Positions 8,792 to 20,132 of a stretch of DNA of 64,000 nt are shown in pieces. Under the pieces are notes generated by a model that was not told where the DNA came from, searched no databases, and worked only from the letters and a program-made list of their open reading frames with translations. The translations under genes and the position numbers were made by a program. Within the stretch, counting starts at the first letter, position 1, and every line of letters starts with the position of its first letter. The stretch covers positions 18,587 to 82,586 of the forward strand of contig NZ_JAUYFA010000005.1 in NCBI RefSeq assembly GCF_030691135.1. The letters are read 5' to 3'. Source of the DNA: Phreatobacter sp. (GTDB lineage: Bacteria; Pseudomonadota; Alphaproteobacteria; Rhizobiales; Phreatobacteraceae).

Positions 8792-8938
8792 GGGTCGGCA
8801 CTCTCGATTGATCTCATCGCAATTTATCGATAGCGCTTAAATTTTTTGTAAATCGTGAGCCTAGATATTCCCTTGCGGCGTCAAGACCATCTAAAGTGAC
8901 GTTAGGGCATTATTGTCGAAGTCCCCTCGCCGACGGAT

Positions 8939-16751: not shown

Positions 16752-17147
16752 ATGGCGAAGATGATCCACACGATGATCCGTGTGCTCGACGAGGCGCGAT
16801 CCCTCGCCTTCTACCGGACGGCTTTCGGGCTTGAAGTGGCAGAAAGGCTCGACTTCGAGACCTTCACGCTGGTCTATCTCGCCAATCGCGAGACCGGGTT
16901 CGAGCTCGAACTCACTATCAACAAGGGCCGGACCGAGCCCTATCAGCGCGGCGACGGCTACGGTCATCTCGCCGTTTCGGTCGACGATTTGGATGGGGAA
17001 CACATGCGGCTGACCGCCGCCGGCCTGGCGCCACGCAAGCTCGTCGACTTCGCCCCCGGCGGACAGGTGCTGGCCCGCTTCTTCTTCATCGCCGATCCCG
17101 ACGGCTATGAGATCGAGGTGCTGCAGAGGTCCGGCCGCTATCTGTGA
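16752..17147 (+). CDS. gloA: Lactoylglutathione lyase (glyoxalase I)
   Basis: MIHTMIRVLDEARSLAFYRTAFGLEVAERLDFETFTLVYLANRETGFELELT; GYGHLAVSVDDL; DPDGYEIEVLQR. Confidence 0.9.
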   Translation: MAKMIHTMIRVLDEARSLAFYRTAFGLEVAERLDFETFTLVYLANRETGFELELTINKGRTEPYQRGDGYGHLAVSVDDLDGEHMRLTAAGLAPRKLVDFAPGGQVLARFFFIADPDGYEIEVLQRSGRYL

Positions 17148-17425
17148 CGCCGCCGAGTTGATAGAGAAGTTGACATCAGCCATAAGCCAGATGCGTCGCA
17201 GGTCACGGAATCGGTCGATCGGCGTTCTGGTTGGAGGAGCCACTTTCAACGGCAATTCTGAACGCTACGCCTTAGTTGGCGCCAATGCCTCTGCATCCGA
17301 CGGCCGGGAAGCCCTTAAGATCGCGGAGGGTCTGGTGGGATTGGTGCCGCGATCCCACGCAGGCAATTGAACCGTGACCTTGACGCCCGCATTCCCGAAG
17401 CGAACGACCAACAGCGAAGCTTCTC

Positions 17426-18838
17426 ATGTCAACGCCTGATCCCAACGCATTGGTCGGTCTTGATGGAAAGACGGCGATGGCTATCGCCTCGATCGTCGCA
17501 GATATCGTCCTCGTGGTCGACAGCGACGGTATCGTTCGCGACCTGCAGACCAGTACCGACACGGCGATCGCCGGCGACGCGCGGACCTGGATGGGGCAGC
17601 CGTGGATCGACACGATCGCCCCGGACAGCCGGCAAAAGGCCGCCGCCCTGCTGAGCGAGGCCACCAGGGGAGCCGCCTCGGCGCTGCGCGAGATCAATCA
17701 CAAGGGTGCGGACCCGCAGGCGACCATTCCCATCCGCTACTCCGCCGCCAAGGGAAAATCCCCGGGCAACGTCGTGATCGTCGGCCGCGACCTCAGCGCC
17801 CTGTCCGGTCTGCAGCAGCAGCTGGTCAAGGCACAGCAGGCAATGGAACGCGACTACGTCAGGTTGCGGGCCGCGGAGACGCGCTACCGTGCCCTGTTCC
17901 AGATGACGAGCGAGCCCATCCTGATCGCCGAGATCACCTCGCGAAAGGTGGTCGAGGCCAATCCTGCGGCGCTCGAAGCCCTCGCGCCCTCCTCCGGGCG
18001 CCTCATCGGACGCGCGCTCGGCCAGTTGTTCGACGACAAGGGCGCAAGCGACATTGAGGCGCTGCTGTCGCGGTCGGCAGGCGGGCAGACCTCCGTCACC
18101 GTGCGCGTCGCCAGCGCCGCCAACGGGCGCCATTTCGACGCGACCGCATCGCTGTTCCGCAACGATGGCACGACCCTCGTCCTGGTGCGCCTGATCGCGC
18201 TCGAAGAGGCCGGCAGCAAGGCACAGTCTTCCGGTTCGACGCGCTATCTCGACCTGATCGAGAAACTGCCCGACGGTTTCGTCGTCACCGACCTGGAAGG
18301 CAATGTCGTGGAGGCCAATCCGGCCTTCCTCGAAGTCGTCCAGCTCGCCACGATCGACCAGGCCCGCGGCCACCAGCTGGGCGAGTGGCTCGGGCGGATG
18401 GGGATCGACTTTCCGACCCTGACCTCGACGCTGCGCGACTTCGGGTCGGTGCGCAACTTCTCGACCATCATACGCGGCGCCTTCGGTGTCACCGAGACGG
18501 TGGAAGTCTCGGCGGTCCTGGTCGAAGCCTCGGATTTCCCCTGCTACGGCTTCGTCATTCGTTCCACGGCGAGGCCCGCACCCGCGGCGAGCGGCAAGAA
18601 CCAGCTGCTGCCGCGGTCGGTGGACCAGTTCACTGAACTCGTCGGGCGCGTCTCGCTGAAGGAACTCGTGCGCGAGACGACCGATATCATCGAGAGGCTG
18701 TGCATCGAGGCCGCGCTCGAAATGACCCACGACAACCGCGCCACAGCGGCGGAACTCCTCGGCCTGAGCCGCCAGAGTCTCTATCTCAAGATGCGTCGCT
18801 TCGGGATCATGGACGATCCGACTCTCGATTCCGATTGA
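17426..18838 (+). CDS. ppsR: PpsR/CrtJ-type transcriptional regulator (PAS domains plus Fis-type HTH)
   Basis: 470 aa; tandem PAS; C-term IIERLCIEAALEMTHDNRATAAELLGLSRQSLYLKMRRFGI typical of PpsR; only two Cys, one in the HTH helix. Confidence 0.88.
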   Translation: MSTPDPNALVGLDGKTAMAIASIVADIVLVVDSDGIVRDLQTSTDTAIAGDARTWMGQPWIDTIAPDSRQKAAALLSEATRGAASALREINHKGADPQATIPIRYSAAKGKSPGNVVIVGRDLSALSGLQQQLVKAQQAMERDYVRLRAAETRYRALFQMTSEPILIAEITSRKVVEANPAALEALAPSSGRLIGRALGQLFDDKGASDIEALLSRSAGGQTSVTVRVASAANGRHFDATASLFRNDGTTLVLVRLIALEEAGSKAQSSGSTRYLDLIEKLPDGFVVTDLEGNVVEANPAFLEVVQLATIDQARGHQLGEWLGRMGIDFPTLTSTLRDFGSVRNFSTIIRGAFGVTETVEVSAVLVEASDFPCYGFVIRSTARPAPAASGKNQLLPRSVDQFTELVGRVSLKELVRETTDIIERLCIEAALEMTHDNRATAAELLGLSRQSLYLKMRRFGIMDDPTLDSD

Positions 18839-18848
18839 CATTTTTTAA

Positions 18849-18889
18849 TGTAAAGAAAAATTGACACTTCGGCGAGGCGATCCTACGCT
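18849..18889 (+). promoter_or_regulatory. Candidate PpsR operator overlapping a sigma70-like promoter
   Basis: TGT-AAAGAAAAATTG-ACA (18849-18866) equals TGTN12ACA; TTGACA (18861-18866)-N17-TACGCT (18884-18889). Confidence 0.65.
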
Positions 18890-18895
18890 GCCGGA

Positions 18896-19200
18896 ATGAA
18901 CAATCCGGGTGCGCCTGACGTTCTCGCCCTGTCCAAGCCCATCGCCTGGTGGCCGGCGATCGGCCGCCCTTGGTCTCGTCCTTGTCGACGGCTATGTCCC
19001 TACCCTGCTGTTGGTGGTGTCTGGCGGTGTTGTCTCCACCATCGCCACGCTTCTCGGCGTCACCGCACCAGGCGTGCATGCGCGCTCCCGGACCACGCGC
19101 GGCCGCGCGGCCCGCCTCTCCCCGCGATCGACTATGCGCGCATACCGATGCCGTCGTCCTGGCGCAGCACCGGCACGCCCTATACGGCCTGACGGAACCG
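18896..19200 (+). pseudogene. Possible frameshifted gene remnant downstream of the PpsR-type promoter
   Basis: GC3-rich coding-like signal moves between frames: MNNPGAPDVLALSKPIAWWPA (18896 frame), ALGLVLVDGYVPTLLLVVSGGVVSTIATLLGVTA (18909 frame), HTDAVVLAQHRHALYGLTEPLG (18949 frame). Confidence 0.3.
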
Positions 19201-19208
19201 CTTGGTGC

Positions 19209-20132
19209 TCACCGGCCCCAGGTGAGCACCATCGCTCCCCGCTCGCGTGCGAGTTCGATCAGCCCCTCCTGCGCCGCCGGATGCGGCAGAGCGAGGGGGT
19301 GGCGGAGCGCGGCGGATGCGATGACGCCACCCTCCTGCATCAGGATCTTGGCGGCGGCGAGCCCGCATTGCCGGTTCTCGTAATTGATCAGCGGCAGCCA
19401 GCGCTCATAGGCGGCCTTGGCCGCGGCGCGGTCTCCGGCGAGATAGGGGTCGATGATGGTGCGGATCCCGTCGGGATAACCGCCCCCCGTCATCGAGCCG
19501 GTGGCGCCGGCATCGAGATCGGCCATCAGCGTGATCGCCTCCTCGCCGTCCCATGGGCCCTCGATGGCGTCGCCGCCGAGTTCGAGGAGCGTCCGCAGCT
19601 TGGCGGCGGCCTGGGCCACCTCGATCTTGAAATAGGCGACGTTCTCGATCTCGCGCGCCAGTTTCGCCAGGAAGGCGGGCGACAGCGGCGTGCCGGCGAC
19701 CGGCGCATCCTGGATCATGATCGGGATGGAGATCGCGTTGGACACGGTGCGGAAGAACGCCTCGATGGCCGGCTCGCCGACGCGGAATGTCGCGCCGTGA
19801 TAGGGCGGCATGATCATCACCATGGCGGCGCCGAGATCCTGTGCCCGCCGCGAACGCTCGGCGCAGATGTGGCTGGCGAAATGCGTCGTCGTGACGATGA
19901 CCGGCACGCGCCCGGCCACATGAGCGAGCACGGCCTGCATCACCGTCTCGCGCTCATCGTCGGTCAGGACGAACTGCTCGGAGAAATTGGCGAGGATGCA
20001 CAGGCCCTGCGAGCCAGCATCGATCATGAAATCGACGCAGCGGCGCTGACCGTCGAGGTCGAGCGTCCCGTCGGCGTGGAAGATGGTGGGCACGACGGGA
20101 AAGACGCCGCGATAGGGGCGCGGATGGGGCAT
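19209..20132 (-). CDS. Dihydrodipicolinate synthase (DapA)/N-acetylneuraminate lyase family protein
   Basis: 307 aa; YRGVFPVVPTIFHADGTLDLDGQRRCVDFMIDAGSQGLCILANFSEQF. Confidence 0.88.
   Translation of the reverse strand: MPHPRPYRGVFPVVPTIFHADGTLDLDGQRRCVDFMIDAGSQGLCILANFSEQFVLTDDERETVMQAVLAHVAGRVPVIVTTTHFASHICAERSRRAQDLGAAMVMIMPPYHGATFRVGEPAIEAFFRTVSNAISIPIMIQDAPVAGTPLSPAFLAKLAREIENVAYFKIEVAQAAAKLRTLLELGGDAIEGPWDGEEAITLMADLDAGATGSMTGGGYPDGIRTIIDPYLAGDRAAAKAAYERWLPLINYENRQCGLAAAKILMQEGGVIASAALRHPLALPHPAAQEGLIELARERGAMVLTWGR

Follow-up and report, generated by a model that had tools for sequence, protein, structure and literature searches.

Published PpsR/CrtJ sites follow the pattern TGT-N12-ACA and overlap −35/−10 elements, as has been reported for pucB and bchC (PMC4452267, PMC9144470). 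According to one account, CrtJ binds pairs of palindromes that are usually separated by 8 bp (PMC9144470). Rhodobacteraceae have been discussed as a case of secondary loss of photosynthesis gene clusters (PMC6052148). The locus analyzed here lies in a 64,000-nt stretch of a Phreatobacter genome (the window, to which all coordinates refer unless a contig is named). It resembles the operators of Rhodobacter bchC and puc and of Rubrivivax pucB and crtI in that the same TGT-N12-ACA lies over a core promoter and PpsR is present in the genome. Whereas such operators are usually paired, here there is a single perfect palindrome, and the typical 8-bp tandem spacing is only partly echoed by a TCT-N12-ACA upstream. 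Unlike in the known cases, the target here is a stump, truncated and frameshifted, and the genome lacks reaction-center and bacteriochlorophyll genes. Gene order, operator position and the 29–31 nt geometry from TTGACA to bchG are the same as in the aerR-ppsR-bchG-pucC-bchP segment of proteobacterial and Gemmatimonadota clusters, yet here the deletions have taken everything outside the stretch from the aerR 3′ end to the bchG 5′ end. As in Rhodobacteraceae, close lineages with and without the cluster can be found; in contrast to that case, the scar is visible, and the regulator, the operator and an outlying pucBAC remain. The features are as follows.

16752–17147, plus strand: glyoxalase-family gene, left neighbor (family matches)
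17151–17370, plus strand: aerR/ppaA 3′ fragment, last ~70 codons, left edge of the island (aligned with intact aerR)
17426–18838, plus strand: ppsR, intact, 470 amino acids (TIGR02040, PAS domains and Fis-type HTH)
18823–18840, plus strand: degenerate upstream site TCT-N12-ACA, one mismatch, overlapping the ppsR stop codon
18849–18866, plus strand: predicted PpsR operator TGTAAAGAAAAATTGACA, a perfect TGT-N12-ACA with no mismatch
18861–18866, plus strand: −35 element TTGACA, the right half of the operator, 6/6 consensus
18867–18883: 17-nt spacer between TTGACA and TACGCT
18884–18889, plus strand: −10 element TACGCT (TACCCT or TAGCAT in relatives)
18896–19126, plus strand: bchG 5′ remnant (aligned with intact bchG of genomes G003 and G010 and with the remnants of G004, G007 and G009)
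19126: right deletion junction, where cluster-derived DNA ends and the DNA flanking the DHDPS gene resumes
19209–20132, minus strand: DHDPS-family gene (PF00701)

The earlier note had described a TGT-N12-ACA palindrome whose right half supplies the TTGACA of a promoter spaced by 17 nt from TACGCT, in an A/T-rich patch starting at the ppsR stop. All of this was confirmed from the letters, with exact coordinates. The operator starts 10 bp past the ppsR stop codon and GC content drops to 0.34 in 18825–18874. Within this patch ACATTTTTTAATGT (ACATT-TTTT-AATGT), which includes ACA-N8-TGT, occupies 18838–18851, and its first base is the last base of the stop codon. Judged by its letters, the TCT-N12-ACA looks like a degenerate second PpsR site, which accounts for this inverted repeat; it is separated from the main operator by exactly 8 bp, and its ACA half is kept in most relatives, while the left half is not conserved. 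The −10 element is weak (3/6 consensus matches, vs. 6/6 for the −35), and a generic sigma70 promoter scan called no promoter at this site. TACGCT is followed by GCCGGA and then by an ATG at 18896; the A of this codon, ~7 nt past the −10, is the predicted transcription start.

The closest relatives of this ppsR are found in Phreatobacter genomes, with 88–94% protein identity (one of the three nearest is labeled only as ‘Rhizobiales bacterium’, but belongs to the same genus set). All six aligned Phreatobacter loci keep the operator, in the form TGTAAA[GC]AAAA[AG]TTGACA, together with the 17-nt spacing and the start codon that follows. In G003 and G010 this codon begins a bchG that is intact (TIGR01476, ~360 bits). 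Because the next gene is intact bchG in these two aligned loci, we assign the ATG at 18896 as the bchG start. A family search of the open reading frames downstream (18896–19192 and the one starting at 18909) returned no family, so the identity of the stump relies on DNA alignment to relatives. The stump has an extra +1 frameshift after ~24 codons and is truncated at the deletion junction. What follows the promoter is thus this 5′ stump and then the 3′ end of the minus-strand DHDPS-family gene, in agreement with the statement that no intact gene lies downstream.

The DNA resembles that of the three closest phototrophic sisters (G007, G009 and G004) from ~275 bp before ppsR, through the gene, to at most ~288 bp past it, where the similarity ends. 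In these three genomes the bchG copy beside ppsR is likewise a stump (loci L006, L007 and L008) with pucC-like and bchP genes behind it, and the cluster holds an intact bchG at another place; in this clade bchG was apparently replaced within the cluster. The intact copy lies ~30 kb off, after bchH and beside an alpha/beta-hydrolase gene (G009, contig C20, 51181–52041).

The segment shared with the clusters of relatives forms an island of 1,976 bp (17151–19126), which holds the aerR 3′ end, ppsR, the operator/promoter and the bchG 5′ end. Both junctions are sharp: homology to relatives starts at 17151 on the left, and at 19126 on the right the match to the G004 flank begins and the match to the G007 and G009 bchG remnants stops. 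In phototrophic sisters, a photosynthesis cluster of ~50 kb is located between the glyoxalase and DHDPS genes. In G007 (contig C26) the homologous glyoxalase gene lies at 993–1388, directly next to dxs, the left end of the cluster, at 1489. In G009 the right end of the cluster stands directly before the DHDPS-family gene, and the gene in the window is colinear with this outer edge at 91–95% identity. Compared with G009, ~16 kb are missing to the left of ppsR (dxs to aerR) and ~32 kb to the right (bchG to the far end). A PpsR-type site, TGTCAATATATTCTGACA, is present just upstream of the cluster dxs in G009 (contig C20, position 3759) and G007 (contig C26, position 1459), which suggests that isoprenoid supply may be under PpsR control.

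No Photo_RC protein was found in the source genome, which is rated 99.93% complete, nor was an intact bchG, and pufLM, bchEJ and the other tested cluster genes are likewise absent. When 20 kb of the G009 cluster were used as a probe, only the ppsR island and weak or paralogous matches came up, and among 12 congeneric genomes this is the sole one with ppsR but without pufLM. A third deletion was detected outside the window, as bchE-bchJ and the next gene of G009 (contig C7) are missing at 127684–127812 of contig C111 of the source genome (G000; loci L204 and L207). There, the match to the preceding gene stops exactly at the gene end and resumes beyond. Misassembly at several places at once is unlikely. 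Going beyond the earlier note, comparison with relatives indicates that the predicted promoter is that of bchG, and that bchG and nearly all of the photosynthesis cluster are deleted. The loss of the cluster, and with it of phototrophy, is judged to be recent. Among the papers that a literature search brought up and that were read, none dealt with photosynthesis loss in Phreatobacter.

The earlier note had compared the architecture to that of repressed bch/crt promoters. This view is supported, as the same operator/promoter is found between ppsR and bchG both in relatives and in other genera, and so is the interpretation of the site as a putative operator overlapping a sigma70-type −35 just after ppsR. 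Among 80 ppsR loci fetched, bchG was the next gene in most, and the aerR-ppsR-bchG order is widespread. In the 64 loci from other genera and phyla in which bchG lies within 700 nt of ppsR, TGT-N12-ACA was present in 31 gaps and the stricter TGTMAN8TKACA in 18, while the reversed form of either pattern did not occur. Where the site ends in TTGACA (19 loci within L014–L084), the in-frame bchG start lies 29–31 nt past it in 17 cases. Once the 17-nt spacer and the six bases of the −10 are subtracted, 6–8 nt remain, and therefore transcription would begin at the bchG start codon. The bchG mRNA is thus predicted to be leaderless and PpsR-repressed. Several Gemmatimonadota loci differ: there, the end of the site is separated by 3 nt from an in-frame start codon. 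No paper on a PpsR-controlled bchG promoter was found in a literature search.

A genome scan for TGT-N12-ACA had been proposed as a check. The raw motif gave no enrichment, either in the window (3 vs. 2.8 expected) or in the genome (291 vs. 289 for the reversed pattern), and was rejected as evidence on these grounds; it is conservation and position, not the raw count, that set the operator above chance. In the 4.2-Mb genome there is one match to the stricter genus motif TGTMAN8TKACA, at 18849–18866 (control 1). The same motif occurs 5–10 times in phototrophic sisters (control 0–2) and 1–3 times in non-phototrophic congeners (control 0–4). A one-mismatch scan of the genome remained at control level overall (37 matches vs. 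44 in the control).

The PpsR protein reaches 432 bits with TIGR02040, above the curated cut-off of 275.4, and retains PAS and HTH_8 domains. Its dN/dS is ~0.08, with no substitution in the HTH on the source-genome branch. This branch carries 12 nonsynonymous and 70 synonymous changes in ppsR, vs. 13 and 63 in two phototrophic sisters, so that a decaying ppsR is not supported. The aerR fragment shows 5 nonsynonymous and 5 synonymous changes (Fisher p = 0.017 vs. ppsR). Constraint on ppsR is thus not visibly relaxed, while that on the aerR fragment may be; these counts are small, and a loss that happened very recently would fit them too. The synonymous divergence of ppsR from the sisters (0.42) exceeds that of the right-flank genes (0.11–0.33), and the value between G007 and G009 is an ordinary 0.25.

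The possibility that the orphan bchG site is the lone target of PpsR was rejected, as the one-mismatch scan revealed a tandem PpsR-like pair, TGTAAAAATATTATTACG-N8-TGTCACATTAAGTTGACG, with the exact 8-bp spacing on contig C43. The pair stands before intact pucB, pucA and pucC, and the same arrangement is found in G009. Given that one-mismatch matches are at control level overall, its weight comes from the pairing, the gene behind it and the orthologous pair. The pucBAC operon, encoding the LH2 antenna, is intact (locus L198, contig C43, 3986–6482) in a genome where no reaction-center or bacteriochlorophyll genes were found. Its dN/dS values vs. G009 are 0.075 (pucB), 0.18 (pucA) and 0.105 (pucC). 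PpsR thus probably still has a real target in pucBAC. We can only tentatively propose that PpsR has persisted after photosynthesis was lost because it remains of use, a constrained PpsR controlling a leftover regulon of pucBAC and the orphan bchG promoter; an equally speculative example of such a use would be that antenna proteins devoid of chromophores are kept off. Outside the photosynthesis cluster of G003, a PpsR-type site TGTCAAGTTGAACTGACA (locus L202, contig C3, 5046–5063) lies upstream of what by eye appears to be a sodium/solute symporter gene pair, a possible extra PpsR target. On contig C26 of the source genome (locus L139, 5000–13000), a pair of AT-rich TGT-N12-ACA palindromes separated by 14 bp was noted at contig positions 8857–8906, where a response-regulator open reading frame ends; ~300 bp downstream lies a gene resembling, by eye, enzymes of the sulfite-oxidase type.

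In the light of these data, we consider it highly probable that the site is a PpsR-repressed bchG promoter left over from deletion of the photosynthesis cluster. The alternative that deserves most attention, improbable as we find it, is that selection keeps the site for a new role, e.g., acting on the convergent DHDPS-family gene through an antisense RNA or transcriptional interference. Such a role could be read from the single change in the 47 nt of the operator/promoter on the source branch, vs. 25 in the 252 nt of the bchG stump, from a terminator scan that called none between the orphan promoter and the DHDPS-family gene, and from the unrelaxed ratio of changes in ppsR. Yet the difference between promoter and stump on this branch is not significant (p = 0.09), and no sign of a new function was found, with neither a conserved RNA nor a conserved open reading frame seen. 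Conservation across the clade is explained by the phototrophs, in which the promoter still has pucC-bchP behind it and is under constraint.

Transplantation of the ppsR island by horizontal transfer or recombination would agree with the elevated synonymous divergence of ppsR, but both flanking genes are those that border the cluster in G007 and G009 and the aerR-ppsR-bchG′ order is retained, and we regard this origin as less probable still. Control of ppsR itself from its 3′ side, through a loop or an antisense promoter, seems hardly likely: the site does lie close behind the ppsR stop codon, and TGT-N12-ACA is absent upstream of ppsR within the window, but the promoter is directed away from the gene, and bchG in relatives accounts for the arrangement. 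We give least credence of all to a chance TGT-N12-ACA unrelated to PpsR, for which the AT-rich gap downstream of ppsR and the control-level frequency of the raw motif could be invoked, since the site is kept in every aligned Phreatobacter locus, recurs at the same place in other genera where the reversed pattern is missing, and in its refined form is unique genome-wide.

Under the preferred reading of a leftover bchG promoter, PpsR bound to TGTAAA-N6-TTGACA in phototrophic sisters would cover the −35 element and block RNA polymerase, and relief of repression would yield a leaderless transcript of bchG (or of the stump and pucC-bchP) from the ATG. In the source genome, two deletions flanking ppsR would have produced the present aerR′–ppsR–operator/promoter–bchG′ arrangement. 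The orphan promoter, if active, would give no more than a short transcript, non-coding or frameshifted, running antisense into the 3′ end of the DHDPS-family gene. The site, the promoter geometry, the orthology, the deletion junctions, the lack of reaction-center and tested bacteriochlorophyll genes and the constraint on ppsR were observed; PpsR binding, repression, the transcription start and any present activity are inferred.

This type of site is itself known; the points of interest are the scar, the surviving regulator with an antenna operon and the leaderless geometry that crosses phyla. With a PpsR site over the −35 and the bchG start 29–31 nt on, this geometry predicts leaderless bchG in many phototrophs. 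The island represents a scar of recent phototrophy loss, as sisters hold the full cluster at the same place, and it allows a test of whether selection or mere lag lets regulators survive the loss of the systems they control.
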